Positions 2,120-59,977 of a stretch of 64,000 nucleotides of DNA are shown one piece after another. Below the pieces are notes generated by a model. That model was not told the origin of the DNA and made no database searches. It worked only from the letters and a program-made list of their open reading frames with translations. Position 1 is the first letter of the stretch; every line of letters begins with the position of its first letter. Source of the stretch: a virus; IMG/VR virus record IMGVR_UViG_3300025874_000005, positions 1 through 64,000 of that record, one strand, 5' to 3'. The translations under genes were made by a program, and so were the position numbers.

Positions 2120-2582
2120 ACCTTCGCATATGTATAAGGTAGACGACTTTCAGGAGTTGGATAACTTAAACATTAGCGATTTGAATAATAAATTATTTTG
2201 CACCTTTACAACTTTAGAGGAATTAGATGGCCTTTTAGACCACATAACATCTAGTTATTCTATAATGTATAATAAGATATTTGTTTTACATATAAAAAGT
2301 AATGATGAATATGTTTGCACATATAACATAGATCAGGGAAACATATCTCATTTAGATAGAAATTCATTACCACCTAATACTATAATGGTGCATAGGAAAA
2401 AAGATACTAATACTTTATATACTATCAATGCCCTAAATGAATTAATTAAAAAATTAAATGGGGGAGTAGTTGATACTAAATTCCCAATTGATTGGCAACA
2501 TTACAGAAACACAGTTCTTCTTACCCAACATGATGAATTAAAGCAACTGAAAACAAAGATTTTCAAGATTATTGAACTTTAG
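2094..2582 (+). CDS. hypothetical protein
   Basis: 162 residues, starting inside the last 26 bases of the polymerase gene in another frame, which suggests translational coupling. A second ATG at 2130 would remove the overlap, so the start is uncertain. Soluble, acidic and Asn-rich, no cysteine cluster or nucleotide-binding motif. Its place between a polymerase and the SSB suggests a replication accessory role, but nothing in the sequence shows one. Confidence 0.65.
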   Translation: MATHTILNKPSHMYKVDDFQELDNLNISDLNNKLFCTFTTLEELDGLLDHITSSYSIMYNKIFVLHIKSNDEYVCTYNIDQGNISHLDRNSLPPNTIMVHRKKDTNTLYTINALNELIKKLNGGVVDTKFPIDWQHYRNTVLLTQHDELKQLKTKIFKIIEL

Positions 2583-2616
2583 GTTGGTTTACCCAAAAGA
2601 AGTTCTTATATTAACA
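2583..2616 (+). promoter_or_regulatory. Bacteroidetes-type promoter upstream of the SSB
   Basis: GTTG at 2583-2586 (one mismatch to TTTG) and TATATT at 2607-2612, 24 bases apart. A short TTGG...CCAA repeat follows the -33 box. Confidence 0.5.
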
Positions 2617-2649
2617 CAGTTATTAAATTAAAATTAAAAGTTATAAAAC

Positions 2650-3492
2650 ATGGATTTAAATGCAATTAAAAAGCGTCTGAATGATTTTCAAAATCAGACA
2701 AACAGTTCCGGAGGTCAACAAAAACAACTATTCTGGAAGCCAACAGTAGGTAAACAACTAATTAGAGTTGCACCTAACAAATACAACAAAGATTTTCCAT
2801 TTACGGAAATGAAATTCTACTATGGAATTGGTAGTAAACGAGTAATGGCATCTCCTTCAAATTGGGGTGAGAAAGATCCAATTATGGAATTTGCTAAACA
2901 ACTTCGTGGAACTAGTGATAGAGAAAATTGGAGACTAGCTAAAAAATTAGACCCAAAAACACGTATTTTTGCTCCTGTAGTTATTCGTGGGCAAGAAGAT
3001 GAAGGTGTTAAGCTGTGGCAGTTTGGTAAAGAAGTTTATCAAGAATTTTTGAATATGGCTGCTGATGATGAAATTGGTGATTTTACTGATATTGCTGGTG
3101 GTAGAGATATTAAACTATCTACAGTAGGACCAGAAACAACAGGTACTCCTTATAATAAAACATCAATTGGACCATCTTTAAAAACATCTCCACTTCATGA
3201 TGATGCTACATTAGTTGAAAGTTTGATGAATGATCAAGCAGATCCAATGAAGGTATTTAAACCACTTTCATATGATGAAATGAAAGTAGCCCTTCAAGAA
3301 TGGTTAGCCCCAGAGGGTAGTGAAGAAGAAGGAGAAATAACTTCAGAACCTGCAGTAGCGTTTGACAGTGATGAAAAAAAGTCTAATTACTCATTAGATA
3401 CAACATCTACCAATGTTAAAAAGTCAAAAGCCGCACAATTTGATGATTTGTTTTCAGATGATAAAAATAAATCAGACGATTTACCGTTTTAA
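2650..3492 (+). CDS. 32: single-stranded DNA-binding protein, gp32-like
   Basis: 280 residues. Coats ssDNA during replication and recombination. The core (30-150) has the gp32-like pattern with FPFTEMKFYYGIG and ENWRLAKKLDPKTRIFAPVV, followed by a long acidic Ser/Asp tail. Unlike T4 gp32 there is no cysteine in the protein, so the zinc site is absent. The last residues are DDLPF, like the protein-docking tip of bacterial (Bacteroidetes) SSB rather than the T4 gp32 tail. UvsX, its natural partner, follows 10 bases downstream. Confidence 0.88.
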   Translation: MDLNAIKKRLNDFQNQTNSSGGQQKQLFWKPTVGKQLIRVAPNKYNKDFPFTEMKFYYGIGSKRVMASPSNWGEKDPIMEFAKQLRGTSDRENWRLAKKLDPKTRIFAPVVIRGQEDEGVKLWQFGKEVYQEFLNMAADDEIGDFTDIAGGRDIKLSTVGPETTGTPYNKTSIGPSLKTSPLHDDATLVESLMNDQADPMKVFKPLSYDEMKVALQEWLAPEGSEEEGEITSEPAVAFDSDEKKSNYSLDTTSTNVKKSKAAQFDDLFSDDKNKSDDLPF

Positions 3493-3502
3493 TAAATAAT
3501 TT

Positions 3503-4579
3503 ATGGCTAGAAAGAAAAAATCACTATCGGAGGCAGTCTCCTCAGAAATACAGGCAAATTTTAACTTAGATGGGTTTAAATCTAAAAAAGGTTTAACATC
3601 CAAAGCTAAATTTAAGGATCAAGAATGGATTCCTCTATCACCAGCATACCAGGAAATAACGTCAGTACCTGGTATTCCTATGGGTCATATAGTTTTACTT
3701 AGAGGTCATTCTGACACTGGAAAAACTACAGCTCTATTAGAAACAGCAGTTGAAGCTCAAAAACGTAAAGTACTTCCGGTTTTTATCATTACAGAGATGA
3801 AATGGAATTGGGAGCATGCTATACAGATGGGTTTAAAAGTTAATGAAGTTGTTGATGAAGAAACAGGTGAAATAACTGATTATAATGGTAATTTTATTTA
3901 TGTAGACAGAGAAACTATCCATTCAATTGAAGATGTTTCTGGATTTATTCTTGATTTAATTGATGAGCAGAAAAATGGTAACTTACCTTATGATTTACTA
4001 TTTCTTTGGGATTCAATTGGTTCAGTACCATGTGAAATGTCTATTAAATCTAATAAAAATAATAATGAGTGGAATGCTGGAGCAATGTCAACACAGTTTG
4101 GAAATAGTGTAAACCAACGCATTACATTATCTCGTAAAGAATCATCTCCATATACTAATACTTTAGTTTGTATTAATAAAGTATGGACAGCAAAAGCAGA
4201 ATCACCAATGGGTAAACCAAAACTTATGAATAAAGGTGGATTTGCTATGTGGTTTGATTCAACATTTGTTGTAACCTTTGGTAATATTATGAATGCTGGA
4301 ACTTCTAAAATAAAAGCTATTAAAGGAGGAAAACAAGTAGAATTTGCTAAACGTGTAAATGTTCAGGTTGATAAAAACCACATTAATGGTATGACAACAA
4401 GAGGAAAACTTGTAATGACACCTCATGGGTTTATTTTGGATAATGATAAAGATTTGAAGAAATATAAAGAAGACCATGCAGAAGAATGGGCTGCTATATT
4501 AGGTGGAAGTGATTTCAAGATCGCAGAAGAAGATCAAGAATATCATGATATAACATCTCACACAGACGAGCCACAATAA
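3503..4579 (+). CDS. uvsX: UvsX-like RecA-family recombinase
   Basis: 358 residues. Strand-exchange ATPase of T4-type recombination-dependent replication. Walker A is GHSDTGKT (68-75), Walker B is around LLFLWDSIGS, and an Asn/Lys-rich stretch after it corresponds to the ssDNA-binding loops. Length fits UvsX (about 390) rather than bacterial RecA. The acidic C-terminus resembles the regulatory tail of the family. Lies directly after the SSB, the usual functional pair. Confidence 0.9.
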   Translation: MARKKKSLSEAVSSEIQANFNLDGFKSKKGLTSKAKFKDQEWIPLSPAYQEITSVPGIPMGHIVLLRGHSDTGKTTALLETAVEAQKRKVLPVFIITEMKWNWEHAIQMGLKVNEVVDEETGEITDYNGNFIYVDRETIHSIEDVSGFILDLIDEQKNGNLPYDLLFLWDSIGSVPCEMSIKSNKNNNEWNAGAMSTQFGNSVNQRITLSRKESSPYTNTLVCINKVWTAKAESPMGKPKLMNKGGFAMWFDSTFVVTFGNIMNAGTSKIKAIKGGKQVEFAKRVNVQVDKNHINGMTTRGKLVMTPHGFILDNDKDLKKYKEDHAEEWAAILGGSDFKIAEEDQEYHDITSHTDEPQ

Positions 4580-17779: not shown

Positions 17780-17959
17780 ATGATAGAATTTTTTAAACAT
17801 GCTTTAGGATTATGTGGTGAACATTGGCACCCAAACATTTTTACAATTATCTTAGGTGGGCTTGGATTATCCGCTCCATTTTCGTATATTAAATACAAAT
17901 TAAACAGTTATGGCAATAAAAATAAGTCACGAAACACCCCTATGTCTATTAAACGATAG
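17780..17959 (+). CDS. small membrane protein overlapping the next gene
   Basis: 59 residues, ATG 17780, one base after the thyX stop. The core EHWHPNIFTIILGGLGLSAP contains one hydrophobic span. The frame runs 50 bases into the next gene and contains the promoter at 17861-17894. Good start spacing and a sensible protein argue it is real, but it could be a by-product of the promoter region. Confidence 0.55.
   Translation: MIEFFKHALGLCGEHWHPNIFTIILGGLGLSAPFSYIKYKLNSYGNKNKSRNTPMSIKR
17861..17894 (+). promoter_or_regulatory. promoter upstream of the TGT/DpdA-like gene, inside a small ORF
   Basis: CTTG at 17861-17864 and TATATT at 17885-17890 (24 apart), TTTTCG before the -7 box as elsewhere. 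The spacer has a GGAT-T-ATCC repeat. Confidence 0.55.
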
Positions 17960-18701
17960 TAGACGATTTAATGATTATGACTATTGTCTTCCCCATTTAT
18001 TGGATGAAGAACCAGGTTATTTAGAATATTTTTTAGAATCTAAAAGACAAGGTCGTTATATTATAATGGATAATTCTCTTCATGAATTAGGCGAAGCCTA
18101 TAACCATGAACGTCTTGTATATTGGGTTAATGAATTAGAACCTAATGAATTTATAGTACCAGATGTTTGGGAAAATTGTGTAGAATCTATTCAAAATGCT
18201 GAAATATGGAATATTTATGATTTTCCTGAAGGAGTTGAGAAAGTTGCTGTAGTTCAAGCAAAAACAATTCATGAAGCTTCACAATGTGTTAAAGCTTATA
18301 AAAATTTAGGTTACGGTAAAATTTGTTTTTCATATGGGGCTTCTTATTATAATGATGTTTGTCCTCACCCAAATAAGGATTTAGGTAAAGCTTTAGGAAG
18401 ACTTTATGTAATTTCAGCTTTAATGAAAATGGGAGATATTAAACAAGATGATAGAATTCATTTATTAGGATGTGCTGTACCCCAAGAGTTTGGGTGGTAT
18501 GAAGGTATTAATTGCATAGAATCAATTGATACATCAAACCCAGTTATGGCGACATTAGAAGATGTTCAATATAGAAATTATGGTTTATATCAAAAACCAA
18601 AAGCAAATATGAATGATTATTTTTATATGTTAAATGATCAAGTTGATTATGATCTTTTAACTTACAATTTAGATGTGTTTAAAATGATAAATAATTTATA
18701 A
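17910..18701 (+). CDS. tRNA-guanine transglycosylase-like (DpdA-type) DNA modification enzyme
   Basis: 263 residues. TGT-fold signals appear in the right order: RYIIMDNSLHELGEA (49-63) at the place of TGT DSGGFQ with general-base Asp54, VVQ (114-116) at the VVQG position, HLLGCAVPQEF (184-194) matching RYLMGVG-P-D and SIDTSNP (205-211) matching the FDCVxPTR nucleophile region with Asp207. TGT-fold DpdA proteins insert 7-deazaguanine bases into DNA. QueC, QueD, QueE and FolE are all encoded within the next 7.5 kb, which supports that role. It is shorter than bacterial TGT (about 375) and lacks its zinc site. Confidence 0.7.
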   Translation: MAIKISHETPLCLLNDSRRFNDYDYCLPHLLDEEPGYLEYFLESKRQGRYIIMDNSLHELGEAYNHERLVYWVNELEPNEFIVPDVWENCVESIQNAEIWNIYDFPEGVEKVAVVQAKTIHEASQCVKAYKNLGYGKICFSYGASYYNDVCPHPNKDLGKALGRLYVISALMKMGDIKQDDRIHLLGCAVPQEFGWYEGINCIESIDTSNPVMATLEDVQYRNYGLYQKPKANMNDYFYMLNDQVDYDLLTYNLDVFKMINNL

Positions 18702-18702
18702 A

Positions 18703-18897
18703 ATGGCAAAACTAACAAGAAATGTAAATTACGCAAATTACAGATGGGAAGAATATGTGTTAACCGAAGAAGAATTAACACAGTGGAAAACGGGTGATGA
18801 AGATATCCAACAAGAGATTATAGATAATGCAGATTGGGATCTAGTAAGAGATAAACCAATTGATGATTACAGTGAACCAGAATTTATAGAAGAATAA
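18703..18897 (+). CDS. hypothetical protein
   Basis: 64 residues, acidic, starting one base after the TGT-like gene. Contains NYRWEEYVLTEEELTQW and an acidic C-terminus (YSEPEFIEE). No motif recognised. Confidence 0.7.
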   Translation: MAKLTRNVNYANYRWEEYVLTEEELTQWKTGDEDIQQEIIDNADWDLVRDKPIDDYSEPEFIEE

Positions 18898-18901
18898 AGA
18901 T

Positions 18902-19126
18902 ATGTTAAAAAAACAATCAATAAGGTCTAATCAGACCATTTTTATCAATAATAATGATAAATCAGCAAGTAAAGATGAAATTCTAGCACTTAGTGAATTT
19001 TGGACTGATAGAGAAGAAGGATTATTTCGAAAACTTCTTAAACAAGGTGGAAGTACAAAAATACAAGGTACTCATTTTAAAGTGGTTGTTGAAGAAAAAC
19101 AACTTAAATTACGTGACATGCAATAG
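18902..19126 (+). CDS. hypothetical protein
   Basis: 74 residues, basic N-terminus (MLKKQSIRSNQT), soluble. Four bases after the preceding stop. Its stop codon overlaps the 5' strand of a possible pseudoknot before queC (19125-19158). Confidence 0.65.
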   Translation: MLKKQSIRSNQTIFINNNDKSASKDEILALSEFWTDREEGLFRKLLKQGGSTKIQGTHFKVVVEEKQLKLRDMQ

Positions 19127-19158
19127 CGTTTGCCTATACGCTTAAAATACCTGGCAAA
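19125..19158 (+). promoter_or_regulatory. candidate H-type pseudoknot leader of queC
   Basis: AGCG (19125-19128) pairs with CGCT (19139-19142), and the loop bases TTTGCC (19129-19134) pair with GGCAAA (19153-19158) across an A-rich linker. This is the crossing order of an H-type pseudoknot, the fold of preQ1-I riboswitches, 15 bases before the queC ATG. No known riboswitch consensus was matched, and the first connecting loop would be zero to one base, which is tight. Confidence 0.35.
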
Positions 19159-19173
19159 TATAAATAAATAAAA

Positions 19174-20046
19174 ATGACACAATTGGAATTAAATTTTAAG
19201 GACTCACGACGTCCGAAACACGCAGTAGTATCACTTTCAGGTGGTATGGATTCAAGTACATTATTGCTTAAATGTCTTGATAAATTTGAAACAGTAACAG
19301 CTTTATCCTTTGACTATGGTCAAAAACATAAGGTTGAACTAAAAAGAGCAAGAGCATTAGTTGATTATTTAAATAGACAATGTACTGACAATAATTGTTA
19401 TGGTGGTTGTAGAATTAAATATCAGGTTATTAAATTAGATGGATTAGTTGATTTACTAGATTCAGCATTAGTTGAAGGTGGTGAAGAAGTACCAGAAGGG
19501 CATTACGCAGCTGAAAATATGAAAGCTACTGTAGTACCTAATAGAAATAAAATATTTGCTTCTATAACTCAGGCAGTTGCTTTATCAGTAGCAAATAGAA
19601 CAGAAGAAGGAACATCAATTGCTTTAGGAATTCATGCCGGGGATCATGATATTTACCCTGATTGTAGACAAGAATTTAGAGATGCTGATGATCATGCTTT
19701 TAGAGAAGGTAATTGGGATGCTGAAAGAGTAGGTTATTATACTCCTTATCTTAAAGGTGATAAATTTACTATTCTTCAAGATGGAGAAGTATTATGTGAA
19801 AAATTAGGTATTGATTTTGATGAAGTTTATGCTAGAACAAACACTTCATATAAACCAACACCTGAAGGGTGGTCTGATTACAAATCAGCATCATCTGTAG
19901 AACGTATTGAAGCGTTCATTAAATTAGGAAGACCTGATCCAGTACAATATGCCGATGAAACAGGTCCTGTTGATTATGAAACGGCAAGAATATATGTTGA
20001 ACAAGTTCTTTCAGAATACGAAAAAGAACAATTAAAAATTAAATAA
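19174..20046 (+). CDS. queC: 7-cyano-7-deazaguanine synthase, QueC-like, lacking the C-terminal zinc cysteines
   Basis: 290 residues. The QueC family converts CDG through ADG to preQ0 using ATP. The PP-loop SLSGGMDSST (20-29), the FDYGQKH segment and GDHDIYPDCR are present. In typical QueC the end carries CxxxxxxxCGxCxxC that binds zinc; here residues 222-248 keep the frame (TNTSYKP ... SSVERIEAF) but contain no cysteine. A separate CxxxxCxxxC cluster appears at 70-79. Altered zinc use or a changed end product is possible. Confidence 0.85.
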   Translation: MTQLELNFKDSRRPKHAVVSLSGGMDSSTLLLKCLDKFETVTALSFDYGQKHKVELKRARALVDYLNRQCTDNNCYGGCRIKYQVIKLDGLVDLLDSALVEGGEEVPEGHYAAENMKATVVPNRNKIFASITQAVALSVANRTEEGTSIALGIHAGDHDIYPDCRQEFRDADDHAFREGNWDAERVGYYTPYLKGDKFTILQDGEVLCEKLGIDFDEVYARTNTSYKPTPEGWSDYKSASSVERIEAFIKLGRPDPVQYADETGPVDYETARIYVEQVLSEYEKEQLKIK

Positions 20047-20047
20047 A

Positions 20048-20269
20048 ATGGAAAATAAAGAATTAAATAAAGAAGTAGATAAAATAGTTAACCAATTAGC
20101 AGGTGCTAATATAAAAGAATTACCTGATGCTTACATGCACCAAAAAATCAGTTTTATTAAATCTGGTGTAAGAATTTTAGGTTATTGTTTTATCCCATTT
20201 AGCTTGGGTTGGGCAACTGCTTTTCTTATATTGAGTGAAGTAATAGGTATAATCGAAGAATTAGTATAA
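20048..20269 (+). CDS. small membrane protein
   Basis: 73 residues. N-terminal 35 residues are charged and helical, followed by a hydrophobic C-terminal half (ILGYCFIPFSLGWATAFLIL). One base after queC. Unknown function. Confidence 0.65.
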   Translation: MENKELNKEVDKIVNQLAGANIKELPDAYMHQKISFIKSGVRILGYCFIPFSLGWATAFLILSEVIGIIEELV

Positions 20270-20285
20270 ATTAAATAAATAAAAA

Positions 20286-20543
20286 ATGAATAGAGGAATT
20301 TTGTATTTCAGCGCACCATGGTGCGGACCTTGTAAAGTAATGTCTCCTTTGATGGAACAAATGGAAAAACAAGGAAAAATTAAGATGAAAAAAATTAATG
20401 TTGATTATGATGCTTCAATGCCTCAAAAATATAACATTAAAAGTGTACCTACTATGGTCTTAACAGATTTAGATGGTAATGAAATTAAAAGAACAACAGG
20501 AAATATGTCTGAGGTTCAAATAATGGAGTTTTACAATGGGTAA
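20286..20543 (+). CDS. trx: thioredoxin
   Basis: 85 residues, a compact thioredoxin with active site WCGPC (12-16 region of FSAPWCGPCKVM) and cis-Pro loop SVPTMVL. Short compared with bacterial thioredoxin (about 105). A natural electron donor for the phage NrdA. Its last 8 bases overlap the queD start. Confidence 0.92.
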   Translation: MNRGILYFSAPWCGPCKVMSPLMEQMEKQGKIKMKKINVDYDASMPQKYNIKSVPTMVLTDLDGNEIKRTTGNMSEVQIMEFYNG

Positions 20544-21000
20544 ATTTTCATCAAGTAAAGTATTTGACGGGTTTAGTACAGTGTTTCGTCAATGGAAAGC
20601 TGAAGATACACATTGTAGATTTTTACATGGATATGGTATTAGTTTCAAAGTATATTTTGAAGGTGATTTAGATGATAGAAACTGGGTTTGGGATTTTGGT
20701 GGTATGAAGCGTGCTAAAACCCAAATTGAGGGTAAATCACCTAAGGAATGGATGGATTATATGTTTGACCATACTGTTATCATTGCAGAAGATGACCCAG
20801 GTATGAAAGGTTGGGAAACTATGAATCAACTAGGAGTAATTCAATTAAGAGTAATTGAAGCTACAGGTGCAGAAAAATTTGCAGAATATATTTATAATAA
20901 GCTCAATGATTTTGTATTTGAAGAAACAGATAATAGAGTTAGAGTAACAAAAGTTAAATTTATGGAGCATGGAAAAAATGCTGCATATTATAGTGAATAA
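20536..21000 (+). CDS. queD: 6-carboxytetrahydropterin synthase-like, QueD family with altered zinc site
   Basis: 154 residues. QueD makes CPH4 from dihydroneopterin triphosphate. The catalytic Cys and following His are in THCRFLHGYG (25-34: Cys27, His31), with WDFGGMK and FDHTVII matching the DFG and LDHT motifs. The second His of the family HGH is Tyr33, and the upstream FxxxH ligand reads FSTVF, so two of three usual zinc ligands are missing; His26 may substitute. Neighbours queC and queE support the assignment. Confidence 0.82.
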   Translation: MGKFSSSKVFDGFSTVFRQWKAEDTHCRFLHGYGISFKVYFEGDLDDRNWVWDFGGMKRAKTQIEGKSPKEWMDYMFDHTVIIAEDDPGMKGWETMNQLGVIQLRVIEATGAEKFAEYIYNKLNDFVFEETDNRVRVTKVKFMEHGKNAAYYSE

Positions 21001-21021
21001 AAAACCACTTAAAAAAATTGT

Positions 21022-21798
21022 ATGTTAAAAAGAATAGAAGATTATAATAAAAATCTACCTGTTGTAGAAATTTATACAGCAGTTCAGTCAGAAGGATCAA
21101 GAGCAGGTTACCCAACAGTAGTTATTAGAACAACAGGTTGTACTCATCGATGTTATTTTGGAGAAGGTGGTTGGTGTGACTCTTGGTATACTAGTATTCA
21201 TCCTGAAAAAGGACATTTTAATTTCAAAGACATTATTGAAATGTATGAGAAAAATCCTCATATAAAAGAAATGATGTTAACTGGAGGCTCACCTACTATG
21301 CATCCTGCTTTGGTAAATGAATTAACACATTTTGCACATGAAAATGATATTTTTATTACTATCGAAACTGAGGGATCTCATTTCCTCCCCACAGACTATC
21401 CTATTAATTTATTATCTATTAGCCCTAAGTTTAGTAATTCTGTACCAGTTGTAGGTGTTTTAACTCCCCAAGGTAAAGAAACGGATGAAAAAATGATTAA
21501 AACTCATAATAGGCTTAGACTTAATTATGATGCAATGAAACAATCAATTGAATATCATTCTGATTATCATATCAAACCAGTATGGGACGGTAAGGATGAA
21601 GGAGCATTAGCTGAGATTATGGAATGTATTAAAACATTAGAAGTACCTCAACATAAAGTATGGTTTATGCCTGCTGGAGATTCAAGAGAAGCATTATTTA
21701 AGTCATACCCAGTATTATTTGATTGGGTTAGGGACAATGGTTATAGAATGACATGGAGACCTCACATTATTGCCTTTGAAGACAAAAGAGAAGTATAA
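21022..21798 (+). CDS. queE: 7-carboxy-7-deazaguanine synthase, QueE-like radical SAM enzyme
   Basis: 258 residues. Converts CPH4 to CDG. The N-terminus VVEIYTAVQSEGSRAGYP is the QueE signature and the cluster cysteines are Cys40, Cys44 and Cys52, giving CxxxCx7C instead of CxxxCxxC. MLTGGSPTMHP and the downstream ETEGSHFLP are the glycine-rich and substrate motifs. Sits two genes after queC, as the third enzyme of the module. Confidence 0.9.
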   Translation: MLKRIEDYNKNLPVVEIYTAVQSEGSRAGYPTVVIRTTGCTHRCYFGEGGWCDSWYTSIHPEKGHFNFKDIIEMYEKNPHIKEMMLTGGSPTMHPALVNELTHFAHENDIFITIETEGSHFLPTDYPINLLSISPKFSNSVPVVGVLTPQGKETDEKMIKTHNRLRLNYDAMKQSIEYHSDYHIKPVWDGKDEGALAEIMECIKTLEVPQHKVWFMPAGDSREALFKSYPVLFDWVRDNGYRMTWRPHIIAFEDKREV

Positions 21799-36100: not shown

Positions 36101-36817
36101 ATGGCTAGAAATACAAGATTAGTTAGTATAAAAGGGTGTCCTATGGTAATATTTGAAGCACCTGAATGCATTTCAGATGAAATTGTTAAGTACAACAATT
36201 TTTGGGAATATGAAGTATTTGATAAATGGAAACAACACTTTCCAAAAGAAGGATTAATGTTAGATATAGGAGCTAATATTGGAGGACATTGTATACAATT
36301 TCACCACCATTTCCCTAATTTAAAAATATGGGGTTTTGAACCGTATCCTCCTAATTATGAATTATTAAGAGTAAATGTTGAAAATCTTCAAAATGTTCAT
36401 AGTTTTTCTTTAGGAGTTGGAAGTGGAAATTCTATGGTTCACTTTGGAAATGAATATTCTAAAAATTGTGGATCTGTAATGGTAGTAAATCCGGATGAAA
36501 ATTGCTTTACTAAACCTTACTCTAATTTTGTTATAGCTTTAGATACCATTAAATTCCCAGAGCCTGTCAAATTTATTAAAATTGATATTGAAGGTCATGA
36601 ATATTCAGCTTTTGAAGGTGCTAAAGAATTATTATTAAGAGATAAACCTTTAGTATGGTTAGAAGATCATGGTCAACCTTTAGGTGAAGGAGATTCAATT
36701 AAATATCTAGAAGGATTAGGATATAAAATGTTAGATAGTTATTTAGAAAGAGACGATAAATCGTCAACATCCTCAGACTTTTTAATGTACCATCCAGACA
36801 ATGTTTGGTATAAATAA
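36101..36817 (+). CDS. FkbM-family methyltransferase
   Basis: 238 residues. Motif I LMLDIGANIGGHCIQF, IWGFEPYPPNYELL (SAM acidic residue) and FIKIDIEGHEYSAFEGA are diagnostic for FkbM. Family members methylate sugars or small molecules, which fits the sugar cluster starting 2 kb downstream. One base after the previous stop. Confidence 0.88.
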   Translation: MARNTRLVSIKGCPMVIFEAPECISDEIVKYNNFWEYEVFDKWKQHFPKEGLMLDIGANIGGHCIQFHHHFPNLKIWGFEPYPPNYELLRVNVENLQNVHSFSLGVGSGNSMVHFGNEYSKNCGSVMVVNPDENCFTKPYSNFVIALDTIKFPEPVKFIKIDIEGHEYSAFEGAKELLLRDKPLVWLEDHGQPLGEGDSIKYLEGLGYKMLDSYLERDDKSSTSSDFLMYHPDNVWYK

Positions 36818-36851
36818 TTAGGATACTCAATAATATTTTCGTATATTTACG
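36818..36851 (+). promoter_or_regulatory. promoter upstream of the Cas4/RecB-like nuclease
   Basis: TATATT (36842-36847) with TTTTCG before and TACG after. The -33 position reads TTAG, one mismatch. Confidence 0.5.
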
Positions 36852-36869
36852 TCAATAAAATACATAGTT

Positions 36870-37826
36870 TTGGCTAAAAAAAAATTACCTGTAATAGTTA
36901 GAGATATAAGAGAAAATCCCCCAACACCCGTTAATTTTGGTGTTGAAAAAAATATCTCATATTCTCAATTATCAATGTTTACTCAATGTCCTAAAAAATG
37001 GTCTCTACAATATAGAGATGGTCATAAAATAAGTGAACAAAGTATTCATATGACTTTTGGTACAGCCCTACATGAGGTTTTACAACATTATTTAGATGTA
37101 ATGTATGCCAAAAGTGGTGCAGAAGCAGATAGGATTGATATTAATGAATTATTTGAAGATACCTTAAGAGAATGTTATGCTAAAGACTATAAAAAAAACA
37201 AAAATCAACATTTTAGCACACCTGAGGAGTTAAGAGAATTCTATGAAGATGGGAAAGCTATATTAGATAATTTTAAAAAGAAAAAAGGTGGTTATTTTTC
37301 TAAAAAAGGGTGGTATTTAGTAGGTTGTGAAATACCAATAGTTATGGCGCCTAATTTACGTCTTAACCGCGTTAAATACATGGGTTATTTAGATATCGTA
37401 ATGTATCATGAACCAACGAATACATTTAAAATAATCGACATAAAAACGAGTACAAAAGGTTGGAATAAGTACACTAAAAAGGATGAATCCAAACAATTCC
37501 AATTAATACTTTATAAGTACTTTTTTAGTAAACAATATAATATTCCAATTGAAAATATAGAAATTGAATTTTTTATTGTTAGAAGGAAAGTTTATTTAGA
37601 TGGTGAATATCCTCAAAAACGTATACAAACATTTGTACCTGCTTCTGGTAGAAATAAAGTAAACAAAGCTACTAAAAATTTAGATGATTTTATAAATAGA
37701 GCATTTAATTTGGATGGCTCATATAAAGATACTACATTTATGGCAAAACCAAGCAAATGGAATTGTACATTTTGTCCTTATAAAGAAAATAAAGAACTAT
37801 GTAGCGCAGTTGGTAAATCTTTATAA
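36870..37826 (+). CDS. PD-(D/E)XK nuclease, Cas4/RecB-like with Fe-S cysteines
   Basis: 318 residues; TTG start at 36870 because the context ATAGTT-TTG-GCT matches the usual AGTT-ATG pattern and no nearby ATG fits. SYSQLSMFTQCPKKW (N-terminal Cys), GTALHEVLQHYLD, YLDIVMYHE, FKIIDIKTS with the D-x-K, and KQFQLILYKYF give the nuclease core. C-terminal WNCTFCPYKENKELC supplies three more cysteines, so a 4Fe-4S cluster as in Cas4/AddB is likely. Probably end-processing in recombination or DNA packaging; no CRISPR genes are nearby. Confidence 0.86.
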   Translation: MAKKKLPVIVRDIRENPPTPVNFGVEKNISYSQLSMFTQCPKKWSLQYRDGHKISEQSIHMTFGTALHEVLQHYLDVMYAKSGAEADRIDINELFEDTLRECYAKDYKKNKNQHFSTPEELREFYEDGKAILDNFKKKKGGYFSKKGWYLVGCEIPIVMAPNLRLNRVKYMGYLDIVMYHEPTNTFKIIDIKTSTKGWNKYTKKDESKQFQLILYKYFFSKQYNIPIENIEIEFFIVRRKVYLDGEYPQKRIQTFVPASGRNKVNKATKNLDDFINRAFNLDGSYKDTTFMAKPSKWNCTFCPYKENKELCSAVGKSL

Positions 37827-37868
37827 TCTGCATATATGTATAGACAAATATATTAAAAAATAATAATT

Positions 37869-38063
37869 ATGTCACAAACAAAAGAAATGACACTTACGAG
37901 TGTAAAAGTAAAAAGCAATTTATTCGAAAATTTTAAAATAGAATGTGTAAAACGGAAATTTAGTTTCCAAAAACTTGCTGATCGAGCTATATTCTTATAT
38001 CTTACAGATGAAGATTTTAGGAAAAAAATTAATAATCAAACTAACTTAGAAATTAAAGACTAA
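37869..38063 (+). CDS. ribbon-helix-helix DNA-binding protein
   Basis: 64 residues. MTLTSVKVKSNLFENFKIEC then FSFQKLADRAIFLYL fits the Arc/MetJ-type strand-helix-helix fold that binds operators as a dimer. The 42-base gap before it has no clear promoter. It heads the sugar cluster and may autoregulate it or act on the inverted-repeat promoters; that is inference. Confidence 0.72.
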   Translation: MSQTKEMTLTSVKVKSNLFENFKIECVKRKFSFQKLADRAIFLYLTDEDFRKKINNQTNLEIKD

Positions 38064-53334: not shown

Positions 53335-53368
53335 TTTGGAGAAGCAAGGAAGCCTTCGTATATTTACG
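53335..53368 (+). promoter_or_regulatory. Bacteroidetes-type promoter, full consensus
   Basis: TTTGGAGAAGC and TATATTTACG at exactly 24 bases (TATATT 53359). Nearly identical over 30 bases to the copy at 53605. Confidence 0.75.
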
Positions 53369-53378
53369 GGGTAAATGA

Positions 53379-53389
53379 GGCATGAAGCC
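53379..53389 (+). promoter_or_regulatory. 5'-leader mini-hairpin
   Basis: GGC-ATGAA-GCC, in the same position relative to the promoter as in the other leaders. An ATG at 53376 is out of frame with the gene. Confidence 0.4.
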
Positions 53390-55993: not shown

Positions 55994-57130
55994 ATGAGAA
56001 AATGGAATGATTGGAAGTCACATGGTGTAGCAAGTGTTTTTCAAGTAGCAGAAGGCTTTAGACCTATGTCGGTTCATAATGGAAATCAATTTTCAGGCTT
56101 GCGTTTGTATACACAAACACCTCGTGTTGATATTAATGATGTTGCTAATCCAAATAATTGGACTTGGGTTAGTCATCAAGGTGGGTTAGGTGCTGGAGCA
56201 AATACAAGCCCAGATGGAGATCCACAAATGGTGTTTTGTTGTCATGATATTTTATCAAGAGAAAATCCTGAAAATATAATAAATTTTTGGGAAGGTGATC
56301 ATTTAGATGTAGATTGGTTACTCTCGCTTCCATATTTTACTACATTAGGTAACACACCAGATTCAACTACAGATTGGAATACTATTGTACTACAGCTTTA
56401 TAGAGTAGGTGGTTGGTTTTGGACTGAAGGTGGTTGGCCTCCAATAAAAGGACCAGGTACTGAAAGTATTGATTTACGACCTGTACATAATTATGAGTTT
56501 CACATGGATGAGTGTTGGGATGGGACCACATTAACGTCTTATGTAGATAGTCATAATCAATCAGCAAATACAATTAGTGGTACTGCACCCTCTGAAACTG
56601 CTGCTTACACTTCATGGCCTTGGGATGCTACATTTAATTTTAATAATGCTGCTGGAATTACAAATACTTCAGATCCAGCAATTACCGGGCAACTTACTTA
56701 TGAGTATATAGGAAACACTAATAATGTTACTGATGATCAATATTTGTGTGATGGTAGGAATGATGGTGGAACTTGGAATTATATGGGCTATCAAGGGTTT
56801 AGGTGGAATTGGTCGGCAAGACTTCAATATAATGGAAGTGATAGTAGTATTAGACATCATGGTGTTATGACTGGGAATTCTTCAACCAATACTAGTAAAT
56901 TATATTATGGTAGTGGGAATGGGTACACTGCTGGTCCAGTTGCCAGTGGAACTTGTTCTACAGCAATGACTACACTTGGGGATAATTTTACTATTGGGAT
57001 GAGGTTTACCAATACTCAGAAATGGAGAGGACAAATGTCAATGTTTAGAGTTTGGGGGTTTGAATTTGATGATGATATGGCTGAAATAGCATGGTTACAT
57101 AACCAAGCACGGATGCCGCTTTATATTTAA
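55994..57130 (+). CDS. probable virion adhesin, lectin-like C-terminal domain
   Basis: 378 residues, Gly/Asn/Trp/Thr-rich with few charges. The C-terminal 150 residues (LSKLYYGSGNG-type strands, then MSMFRVWGFEFDDDMAEIAWLHNQ) look like a LamG/concanavalin-type jelly roll, whose final F-R-V-x-x-F-x-D segment is typical. No signal peptide. Probably a particle-surface carbohydrate binder. Comparable in style to the protein at 23170. Confidence 0.65.
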   Translation: MRKWNDWKSHGVASVFQVAEGFRPMSVHNGNQFSGLRLYTQTPRVDINDVANPNNWTWVSHQGGLGAGANTSPDGDPQMVFCCHDILSRENPENIINFWEGDHLDVDWLLSLPYFTTLGNTPDSTTDWNTIVLQLYRVGGWFWTEGGWPPIKGPGTESIDLRPVHNYEFHMDECWDGTTLTSYVDSHNQSANTISGTAPSETAAYTSWPWDATFNFNNAAGITNTSDPAITGQLTYEYIGNTNNVTDDQYLCDGRNDGGTWNYMGYQGFRWNWSARLQYNGSDSSIRHHGVMTGNSSTNTSKLYYGSGNGYTAGPVASGTCSTAMTTLGDNFTIGMRFTNTQKWRGQMSMFRVWGFEFDDDMAEIAWLHNQARMPLYI

Positions 57131-57146
57131 GACTTCTGCAAAAATA

Positions 57147-57180
57147 TGTGGAGAAGCAAGAAATTATTCGTATATTTATG
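57147..57180 (+). promoter_or_regulatory. promoter with altered -33 box
   Basis: TGTGGAGAAGC in place of TTTGGAGAAGC (57147-57157) and TATATT at 57171-57176. Confidence 0.6.
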
Positions 57181-57190
57181 GTATAAATGA

Positions 57191-57200
57191 GGCGCACGCC
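57191..57200 (+). promoter_or_regulatory. 5'-leader mini-hairpin
   Basis: GGC-GCAC-GCC. The ATG at 57187 just before it is in frame with the next gene but lies in this conserved leader, so it is not taken as the start. Confidence 0.4.
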
Positions 57201-57210
57201 CAATACAGTT

Positions 57211-57702
57211 ATGAAACAAAAAATATTATATTTACATGGTTTAGAAAGTCCACAGGGTGGTGATAAGGTTGATTTCTTAGCAACTAAAGCATTTGTTCAT
57301 GCACCTGAGTTAGATTATACAAGGAGTGATATATTTCCATTCCTTATTAGCACAGTTGAGGAGTTTAAACCTGATGTAATTATAGGTTCATCAATGGGTG
57401 GTTATTCTGCATTCGTTTTAGGAGCGCTTTATAAAATTCCAGTTGTTGCTTTTAATCCTGCTTTGCATTCTAGAAGAATTGAGCCTAATTTCCCTAAATT
57501 TGTAAAAGAGCATGTTCCTGATAACTTTCATTTGGTGTTGGGTGAAAAAGACACCGTTATTGATGGTAGTAAAACGTTAGATTACCTTAAAGACCATGTT
57601 GCCGGTAAGTATATGCAATCTCAAATTCATCGCGTTAAAACAATGGGACATAGAGTGCCACTTGATGTGTTTTGCGATATGTATAATAAAACAATTAAAT
57701 AA
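57211..57702 (+). CDS. YqiA-like alpha/beta-hydrolase esterase
   Basis: 163 residues from ATG 57211 (AGTT-ATG). ILYLHGLESPQGGDK, DVIIGSSMGGYSAFVLG with the nucleophile Ser (GxSxG), LVLGEKDTVID with the Asp and TMGHRVP with the His form the triad, as in the UPF0227/YqiA family. Substrate unknown. Head of the operon that continues with the internal head proteins. Confidence 0.84.
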   Translation: MKQKILYLHGLESPQGGDKVDFLATKAFVHAPELDYTRSDIFPFLISTVEEFKPDVIIGSSMGGYSAFVLGALYKIPVVAFNPALHSRRIEPNFPKFVKEHVPDNFHLVLGEKDTVIDGSKTLDYLKDHVAGKYMQSQIHRVKTMGHRVPLDVFCDMYNKTIK

Positions 57703-57703
57703 G

Positions 57704-58063
57704 ATGAAGGAATTAAATAATTTTAGAGAATATCTTAACGAAGCTAAATTTAAAGTTGGTGATAAAGTAACCATGAATAATGGTGGTCCAGAAATGGAGA
57801 TTACTAAAACACGTAGGATGTTTGGGTCTGATCTTAATGCTTACTCAGTTAAAAAAGCTGATGGAGAAGAAATGGAGTATGATGAAAAGCAATTGAGATT
57901 AGCTGAAATAAGCTTTGGTGCTGCGGGTACAGATAAAAGATCTGGCCAAGTAATAGGTGAAATAATTCAAATGATTAGAGATACAGGAATAGACCCATCA
58001 GATGTATTAGAAGAAGTAGGCCAAGAGTTTGGTATTGCTTTTGAATTTGGAAGAGGTCAATAA
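57704..58063 (+). CDS. probable internal head protein (capsid-targeting N-terminus)
   Basis: 119 residues from ATG 57704, one base after the esterase stop. N-terminus MKELNNFREYLNEAKF closely mimics T4 internal-protein capsid-targeting sequences (MKTYQEFIAE followed by A), with a likely prohead-protease site after LNE. Then VGDKVTMNNGGPEMEI resembles a small SH3-like fold and the rest is helical. If cleaved and packaged, it would be ejected with DNA. Confidence 0.62.
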   Translation: MKELNNFREYLNEAKFKVGDKVTMNNGGPEMEITKTRRMFGSDLNAYSVKKADGEEMEYDEKQLRLAEISFGAAGTDKRSGQVIGEIIQMIRDTGIDPSDVLEEVGQEFGIAFEFGRGQ

Positions 58064-58086
58064 AAATAAAAATAAAATAAAATAAA

Positions 58087-58401
58087 ATGGATAAATTTAA
58101 CTTGAAAAAATTTCTTGGTGAAAAATCACTATTAAATGAAAACTCACCTGGGTATGATACTAGAAAGACAGGTGAAGCACTACCAACACTAGAAAGTGTT
58201 AAAGCAGCTTATGAAGCTAAACAAGATAAAGAAGAAATTAAAGAAGGTGTTTGGAATATGCCTTCAGCAGATGAAGTAATGGAATTTGTTGCTTATATGG
58301 AAGATGCTAAAGAAAAATTTTATCATATAGGTAGTGATGATGTACATGATGGTTTAGAACAAGCAATTATTAGTGCTAAAGATTTAGTAACTGGAGAATA
58401 A
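58087..58401 (+). CDS. probable internal head protein
   Basis: 104 residues, acidic. N-terminus MDKFNLKKFLGEKSLLNE has the same amphipathic helix and an LNE site, followed by NSPGYD. The remainder is helical and acidic. Same operon and same type of N-terminus as its two neighbours. Confidence 0.58.
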   Translation: MDKFNLKKFLGEKSLLNENSPGYDTRKTGEALPTLESVKAAYEAKQDKEEIKEGVWNMPSADEVMEFVAYMEDAKEKFYHIGSDDVHDGLEQAIISAKDLVTGE

Positions 58402-58402
58402 T

Positions 58403-58954
58403 ATGAGTTTTAATCTACAAAAATACTTTAAAAATCAATACCTGCTAGAAGGGGATTGGGATAAATTAAGTTCTACAGAAGCTTCTGATGAAGCTGATGA
58501 TATTATAGAGTTAATTAAATCTGCTTATGCCTACATTGGAGGTCATAGTAATTTTAAAAGTGTTGGTGACGTAGATAAAGAAACAGGCAGAGGTGCTGAG
58601 TATGAAGTGATTGATTTAGATGATGATGGAGATATTGATGCAGTTAACGTATCTAAACGTAAAGCTGCTGGTGAAAAGTTCGTTGCTACAGGCCATGATG
58701 GTTCTCGTGAAGCTAAAAGAGCTGTTATTACACATAAAATAGATAGGTTAAAAAAACCAGGTTTTTATGTTGAAGTATCAGGAAAAATAAAAGATATCTT
58801 ACTTAAAGCAGGTGTACCTCAGGTAACTGACCAAGCTACTATTGAGAAAGCATTGGCTGGTAAAGATATTATTATGAACGATGATGGTTCATATACAAGG
58901 AGCATTGCTGGTACAAAGCATGAAAAAATAATGCTAGGAACTCCGCTAGTATAA
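58403..58954 (+). CDS. probable internal head protein with calcium-binding-like loop
   Basis: 183 residues. N-terminus MSFNLQKYFKNQYLLEGDW has an LLE-G site at the right place. The body contains VIDLDDDGDIDAVNVS, a DxDxDG loop as in EF-hand or dockerin-type calcium binders, and a basic middle. No enzyme motif recognised. One base after the previous stop. Confidence 0.6.
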   Translation: MSFNLQKYFKNQYLLEGDWDKLSSTEASDEADDIIELIKSAYAYIGGHSNFKSVGDVDKETGRGAEYEVIDLDDDGDIDAVNVSKRKAAGEKFVATGHDGSREAKRAVITHKIDRLKKPGFYVEVSGKIKDILLKAGVPQVTDQATIEKALAGKDIIMNDDGSYTRSIAGTKHEKIMLGTPLV

Positions 58955-59341: not shown

Positions 59342-59355
59342 TTCGTATATTTACA
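59322..59355 (+). promoter_or_regulatory. Bacteroidetes-type promoter inside a hairpin
   Basis: TTTG (59322-59325) and TATATT (59346-59351), 24 apart, with CCTTCG before. Confidence 0.7.
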
Positions 59356-59364
59356 AGGTAAATG

Positions 59365-59376
59365 GGGTGCGAGCCC
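59365..59376 (+). promoter_or_regulatory. 5'-leader hairpin with GNRA loop
   Basis: GGGT-GCGA-GCCC (one G-U pair), GCGA tetraloop. The ATG at 59362 is in the leader and not used as the start. Confidence 0.5.
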
Positions 59377-59923: not shown

Positions 59924-59957
59924 TGTGGAGAAGCGAGGAAGCGTTCGTATATTTACG
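59924..59957 (+). promoter_or_regulatory. promoter with altered -33 box
   Basis: TGTGGAGAAGC (59924-59934) and TATATT (59948-59953), followed by TACGGGG. Confidence 0.6.
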
Positions 59958-59967
59958 GGGTAAATGA

Positions 59968-59977
59968 GGTGAGAGCC
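59968..59977 (+). promoter_or_regulatory. 5'-leader hairpin with GNRA loop
   Basis: GGT-GAGA-GCC (one G-U pair), GAGA tetraloop. The ATG at 59965 is out of frame with the gene. Confidence 0.45.

Follow-up and report, generated by a model that had tools for sequence, protein, structure and literature searches.

Three consecutive small genes in a 64,000-nucleotide stretch of virus DNA (the window, positions 1-64000 of a 164,118-base virus record, the remaining genome of which was also analysed) raise the question of what the short tag-like N termini of their products are for. An initial annotation had placed three consecutive genes at 57704-58954, where all three open reading frames, P1, P2 and P3, are indeed found on the plus strand (Table 1), and had read their N termini as T4-type capsid-targeting sequences. 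In T4, the prohead protease gp21 cleaves after L/I-X-E, and the function of the capsid-targeting sequence (CTS) has been described (PMC9026906). Our best explanation as a whole, to which we assign a probability of about 0.8, is that P1 to P3 would be packaged, cut by gp21 and injected.

Table 1. Features of the P1-P3 locus and of the head module (positions in the virus record)
Feature	Position	Strand	Description
Late-promoter-like element TATTTATAA	55979..55987	+	nearest upstream of the P1-P3 run; 26 more genome sites
Repeat CGTATATTTATGGTATAAATGAGG	57169..57192	+	directly upstream of the hydrolase-P1-P2-P3 run
UPF0227/YqiA-like alpha/beta hydrolase	57208..57702	+	Pfam PF05728, 5.4e-12; directly upstream of P1
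P1 MKELNNFREYLNEAKF	57704-58063	+	ORF, 119 aa; MKEL-type tag, SH3-like body (predicted), C-terminal helical module
P1 tag MKELNNFREYLNE	57704..57742	+	predicted cut after E13 (between YLNE and A)
P2 MDKFNLKKFLGEKSLLNENS	58087-58401	+	ORF, 104 aa; FDLKKFL-type tag, short body without known family
P2 tag MDKFNLKKFLGEKSLLNE	58087..58140	+	predicted cut after E18 (between LLNE and N), possibly also after E12 (between FLGE and K)
P3 MSFNLQKYFKNQYLLEGDW	58403-58954	+	ORF, 183 aa; FDLKKFL-type tag, body kept in distant phages
P3 tag MSFNLQKYFKNQYLLE	58403..58450	+	predicted cut after E16 (between YLLE and G)
Terminase	114707		T4-type head module
Portal gp20	116300		PF07230, 5.8e-64
gp21 prohead protease, S77	121287-121889		Pfam PF03420, 2.1e-30
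Scaffold gp22	122080		T4-type head module
gp23	123284		PF07068, 3.9e-75

The P1, P2 and P3 genes and their setting

The 164-kb record is a T4-type phage encoding gp20, gp21 (the S77 protease) and gp23, and the gp21-like protease that the initial annotation had suggested looking for elsewhere in the genome is present in its head module. Judged by gp23, the closest cultured phages are the Flavobacterium phages immuto (60% identity), and in six genomes the gp23 propeptide terminates in LVME, LVTE, IVSE, IIKE or LIVE. Directly before gp21 lies an L/I-x-E-rich gene (120112-121278) whose product starts MKTLQEQYNQI...FLKE and whose immuto counterpart at 123578 has FIAEA in place of FLKE; it probably encodes a component of the prohead core that has a site resembling the T4 CTS. 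The window also encodes QueC, QueD, QueE and a DpdA-like protein (17910-21798; the last 37% identical to an immuto protein annotated as DpdA), probably a 7-deazaguanine DNA modification cassette, which suggests 7-deazaguanine in the phage DNA.

The body of P1 matched DUF2158 in Pfam at E=0.015, short of the cut-off, and PHROG 3261 at 4.6e-6. Its AlphaFold2 model has a mean pLDDT of 65 (about 81-87 in residues 21-60), and Foldseek returned SH3-like matches to this model (best 1.5e-3); we assign an SH3-like small barrel with moderate confidence, and the C-terminal helical module (GIDPSDVLEEVGQEFGIAFEFGRG) is conserved. Unannotated homologues of P3 occur in Tenacibaculum phage pT24 and in huge phages, and the earlier statement that the bodies match nothing comes close to the truth, these homologues and the small SH3-like body of P1 being the exceptions. 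A GNAT-like fold for P3, at which the order of its elements hinted, is not claimed because Foldseek found no match with E<0.4 for its AlphaFold2 model (mean pLDDT 52). A near-identity search of the region against cultured phages gave no match, and searches of cultured phages with the P1 and P2 proteins found no homologue. The hydrolase upstream of P1 and the P3 family are adjacent in pT24 (BPT24_056/057) and in a 635-kb huge phage (LR745206, L258; 1483 and 2059), the loci with this pairing being L257, L258 and L264-L267. Because the two are neighbours in very distant phages, they may work together as a conserved pair.

The sequence ATATTTATAAYAAA lies about 22 nt ahead of the portal, tape-measure and other structural genes in this genome and ahead of the terminase, portal, sheath, hub and tape-measure genes in immuto, and it is common to immuto and many uncultured relatives. 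Of 179 tagged genes (described below), 45 have TATTTATA in the 70 nt ahead of them, compared with 1.8% of background windows, and we infer that ATATTTATAAYAAA/TATTTATA is a late-promoter-like element. None stands directly upstream of P1-P3; the nearest, TATTTATAA, precedes the gene at 55994, and since the gene at 57208 separates it from P1, its control of P1-P3 is only possible. A non-coding repeat, CGTATATTTAYGGNRTAAATGAGG, has four plus-strand copies in the window (53357-53380, 57169-57192, 59344-59367 and 59946-59969; chance expectation 0), each located a short distance ahead of a gene; the repeat had no match in Rfam and is possibly a promoter class or an RNA element.

A modular tag on bodies that avoid the protease motif

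The tags of P2 and P3 share one modular form, F-D/N-L-x-K-Y/F-L-x-E...L-x-E, whereas P1 has the form MKEL..FR.YLxE, which is nearer to the T4 leader MKTYQEFIAE. The N termini of P2 and P3 are similar (p=0.0085 against shuffled N termini), and that of P1 showed no significant similarity to either (p=0.18 and 0.20, shuffles), so the likeness described for all three starts holds for P2 and P3, with P1 as a separate type. In an all-against-all comparison, P2 and P3 are each nearer to a genome-mate than to each other, namely P2 to 108688 (MNNFDLTKYLAEGKLLNE) and P3 to 99810 (MDNFNITKWNRNRYLNEG), both with a score of 50 and 0/2000 shuffles; the P2 tag is also similar to an immuto tag (0/2000 shuffles). 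MKEL-type N termini like that of P1 are found on other bodies in relatives.

All three leaders, within the range of 10-20 residues, close in L/I-x-E (YLNE at 13, LLNE at 18, YLLE at 16) and thus carry the T4 gp21 consensus, as had been annotated (PMC9026906), with a middle residue that varies in orthologues. P1-type tags of relatives end in FLNE, FLYE, FLTE or YLAE and those of P3 orthologues in YLLE, YLAE, YLKE or PLLE, with L and E constant and the middle residue free; the P2 tag has the orthologues KKFISNKTLLNE and KKFVSEKTLLNE, and FDLKKYLANNPLLE in L267 connects the P3 tag to the main tag family. The T4 internal proteins do start with MKTYQEFIAE followed by A, as read from the IPII/IPIII sequences in the T4 record, and P1 shares with them aromatic residues at -6 and -3, I/L at -2 and E at 0. 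Likeness to MKTYQEFIAE gave p=0.007 for P1 (one among several comparisons), 0.049 for P2, 0.58 for P3 and above 0.1 for the FDLKKYLAE type.

A degenerate DNA pattern for FDLKKFLxEN and two related patterns, with no start codon required, were searched in IMG/VR and gave at least 120 stretches for the first and 53 and 26 for the others, while a scrambled pattern of equal composition gave 0 matches. Among the matches listed, 229 of 230 are no more than 12 codons away from a start (138/139, 63/63 and 28/28 by pattern), and at least 176 unique complete tagged proteins fall into at least 80 body clusters at E<1e-3, 55 of them singletons, counts that are not independent events because the tags are related by descent (several long records are, in addition, near-identical phages). 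The tagged proteins are 55-445 aa long, and Pfam, PHROGs and PADLOC gave almost nothing beyond weak or unnamed matches for 86 tagged representatives. Searched against cellular genomes (257 Gb), the first pattern matched 12 stretches, one of which has the tag form and lies on a phage-like contig that itself encodes an S77 protease. These exact DNA patterns and non-iterated statistics replaced an iterated HMM of the tag, which had drifted into a RecA/UvsX-like family in iterations 1-3.

Tags are exchanged between bodies. The P2 body bears a P1-type tag in L264, in L277 and L278 an FDLRKYLAE tag precedes the conserved C-terminal part of P1, and the MKEL tag sits upon different bodies in L265 and L278; several of these swap loci adjoin homologues of the late-region genes 106729 and 110057. 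Tagged genes often stand in rows (L033, L053; five in G004), and in immuto the start FDLKKFLVENKLTxNSKLLKE, or one like it, is found on at least five proteins. The wobble codons of the tag core vary (TTT/TTC 65/15, GAA/GAG 49/31), which indicates selection on the peptide and not on a nucleic-acid signal.

Other arrangements were seen beside these. Two tagged genes are fused in frame, with the complete tag MENFDLKKFLVENKLTTNSRMVNE mid-protein (G002 36342-37934; also the first tagged ORF of L252), as in a polyprotein that could be split by the protease. An N terminus of the form MKKS[EQ]L..[IL]I[KR]E.. recurs on different bodies in this genome (78299, 102231, 113758) and in immuto (102294, 102880, 113188), and the C terminus of 102231 is also gp22-like (RFAKLAGLEK). 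In LR745206, the neighbouring genes 2582-3106 and 3106-3531 start with MKYLKKYKAFE and MKYLKTFES, perhaps a further tag shared by N termini in huge phages.

The first L-x-E, which closes the tag core, is partly fixed by the search patterns, and the second site was therefore counted with patterns that do not demand it. Among the matches listed, a second [LI]xE at offsets 9-28 is present in 66 of 73 body clusters, compared with 60 of 343 equal-size body windows; its spacing is near-fixed (offsets 11-12 or 17-18), and 12 different residues occupy its middle position. Within the tagged bodies [LI]xE is rarer than in shuffled versions (observed/expected ratio [O/E] 0.81, bootstrap 95% 0.66-0.97), as expected if the proteins meet the protease and must survive. 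The O/E is 1.15 in untagged proteins of related phages, and it reaches 2.0 and 2.2 in gp22 and the 120112 product, for both of which digestion is expected. No such depletion is seen in tagged bodies for the control motifs [LI]xD, [LI]xK, [LI]E and Ex[LI], and [LI]xxE is mildly lower (0.84 versus 0.99). The bodies of P1, P2 and P3 keep three, one and one L/I-x-E, respectively, and the avoidance is thus a family trend, not a strict rule.

Of the 20 tag-bearing records that reach 96 kb or more, 19 encode the protease itself (PF03420); the lone exception, G008, lacks gp23 too and is hence a fragment, and in the shorter tag-bearing records without S77, gp23 is also missing or the record ends beside gp23. 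S77 was found in 0 of 20 random contigs, a weak control since these are shorter than the tag-bearing records. The aromatic-L-x-E grammar by itself is enriched just 1.9-fold at N termini genome-wide and is therefore no usable predictor.

Modular and N-terminal, the tag peptide is under selection at the protein level and is carried by unrelated bodies that avoid the protease motif. The original designation of T4-type capsid-targeting N termini is supported by the S77 gene, the L/I-x-E sites, the tag swaps and the avoidance of the motif in the bodies, and has to be amended in that there are two tag types and that such tags extend far beyond these three genes. On this sequence evidence, the tags are probably head-targeting propeptides cut by gp21.

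A candidate scaffold-derived tag and alternative explanations

The gp22 C terminus reads R-M/F/W-Q/K-K/Q-LAGI(I) in six of six genomes. In IMG/VR the RMQKLAGI pattern was found in 39 distinct contexts, 13 of them C-terminal (gp22-like), 23 near the N terminus and 3 others. The N-terminal form is MKKQILSEEFxRMQKLAGIITE, with an [LI]xE within eight residues past the RMQKLAGI core in 22 of 22 complete cases and an additional one ahead of the core in 18; the former is absent from 12 of the 13 C-terminal cases. The 22 bodies so tagged form 20 clusters, their [LI]xE O/E of 0.81 (z -1.4) is not significant alone, S77 is present in 5 of 5 records of at least 99 kb that carry this tag, and one tagged protein closes with the gp22 C-terminal motif RMKKLAGLIK. 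This tag is apparently the gp22 C-terminal peptide re-used at the N terminus, which connects the tag logic with the prohead scaffold.

The resemblance to gp22 bears on an unlikely alternative, namely, that the tagged proteins are accessories of the prohead core or scaffold that enter by the tag, help assembly, and are then degraded or expelled, never injected. The cleavage motif is common to gp22 and the 120112 product (FLKE; FIAEA in immuto), one tagged protein ends like gp22, and the bodies are acidic, like core proteins; however, the digested core proteins are rich in L/I-x-E, whereas the tagged bodies are depleted of it, and an assembly role leaves 80 unrelated bodies and their fast turnover unexplained. 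It is improbable that the N-terminal peptide does some other job, in membrane or compartment targeting, stability or translation start context, and that its likeness to the CTS is coincidental. Although the tag, a predicted short helix, could bind many partners, the varying wobble codons speak against a nucleic-acid signal, and the S77 association, the spacing of the protease motif and its avoidance in the bodies would be left without explanation.

The rows of tagged genes resemble tandem duplicates, as if the tagged proteins were diverged paralogues of one ancestor in which the N terminus is the best-conserved part, but the 80 clusters at E<1e-3, the range of lengths and the tag-body recombination observed in orthologous loci render this highly improbable. 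That the amphipathic starts are alike by chance is hardly conceivable: the comparison of P1 with P2 or P3 alone is not significant, yet the scrambled control gave nothing against at least 120 matches, and the pairwise p-values also argue against it; for P2 and P3, chance resemblance is refuted by the scrambled control, the proximity to starts and the shuffle p-values.

Proposed route and comparison with known systems

By analogy with T4, the N-terminal propeptides of P1-P3 would carry their bodies into the assembling prohead in the manner of the T4 CTS; the gp21-type S77 protease in the prohead would cut after L/I-x-E, so that the tag is removed and the body freed, and the latter would stay beside the packaged DNA and then be injected into the host. 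Core targeting, cleavage, virion retention and injection are all inferred from T4. Injected proteins work ahead of any phage gene expression, and the likely purpose of the bodies would be counter-defence, on the model of T4 Ip1-3; whether P1-P3 are injected counter-defence proteins we regard as an even question. Because QueC, QueD, QueE and a DpdA-like protein are encoded, modification-dependent restriction enzymes are reasonable first candidates for the target. T4 Ip1, Ip2 and Ip3 have the leader alone in common, and the GmrSD type IV enzyme that is blocked differs among the three, so that three of three T4 injected proteins tested block type IV restriction enzymes (PMC12373910).

Since the bodies share nothing, the injected class cannot be found by homology, and it is the recognisable tag that makes it searchable. 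Three DNA patterns and one scaffold-derived pattern led to at least about 100 body families, of which hardly any belongs to a Pfam or PHROGs family, and with the tags one can list proteins of such phages that are probably borne in the virion and injected. The scaffold-mimic tag makes cargo recognition by the core a testable question. More broadly, several interchangeable head-entry tags (FDLKKFL/FDLKKYLAE, MKEL and the scaffold mimic MKKQILSEEF.RMQKLAGI..E) may constitute a general import code, in which 5'-end recombination would convert almost any small gene into one for a packaged, injected protein, and most of the hundreds of orphan bodies would be injected counter-defence or takeover factors; we hold the chances of this to be evenly balanced. 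The T4 capsid-targeting principle is already known. The tag strings gave no match in a literature search, which found no description of such tags outside T-evens and phiKZ-like phages, and these tag families and their scale are absent from the literature searched.

The tags resemble the T4 CTS (IPI, IPII and IPIII) in being short N-terminal peptides with aromatic positions and a terminal L/I-x-E, and P1-P3 resemble the T4 internal proteins in having small unrelated bodies, in a phage with gp21, gp22 and gp23, and in gene positions distant from the head genes and amid metabolic genes. Unlike the T4 CTS, the tags here are of FDLKKFL/FDLKKYLAE (18-25 aa, usually with two L/I-x-E sites), MKEL and RMQKLAGI types; there are tens of body families, and the phages that carry them are of the immuto (Flavobacterium) lineage and uncultured relatives, not Tevenvirinae. 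The tagged bodies are mostly acidic (family median pI 4.7), whereas the T4 internal proteins are basic, a basic mature body being a typical, not a defining, property of the latter. T4 Alt (with an LFDE-type propeptide) and gp67/gp68 are likewise gp21 substrates located in the core, gp67/gp68 differing in that they are degraded; no homology of these proteins to P1-P3 was found in any search made. DarA/Hdf of bacteriophage P1, a myophage, are defence-against-restriction proteins that are packaged in the head and injected, and are alike by this description. In SPN3US/phiKZ, a gp21-related S77 protease removes N-terminal propeptides from ejected head proteins, and the diverged paralogues gp53/gp54 have identical N termini (PMC5694885). 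Those propeptides differ in being mostly longer than 100 residues, in their cut motif, A/S-x-E, and in having no common interchangeable tag.
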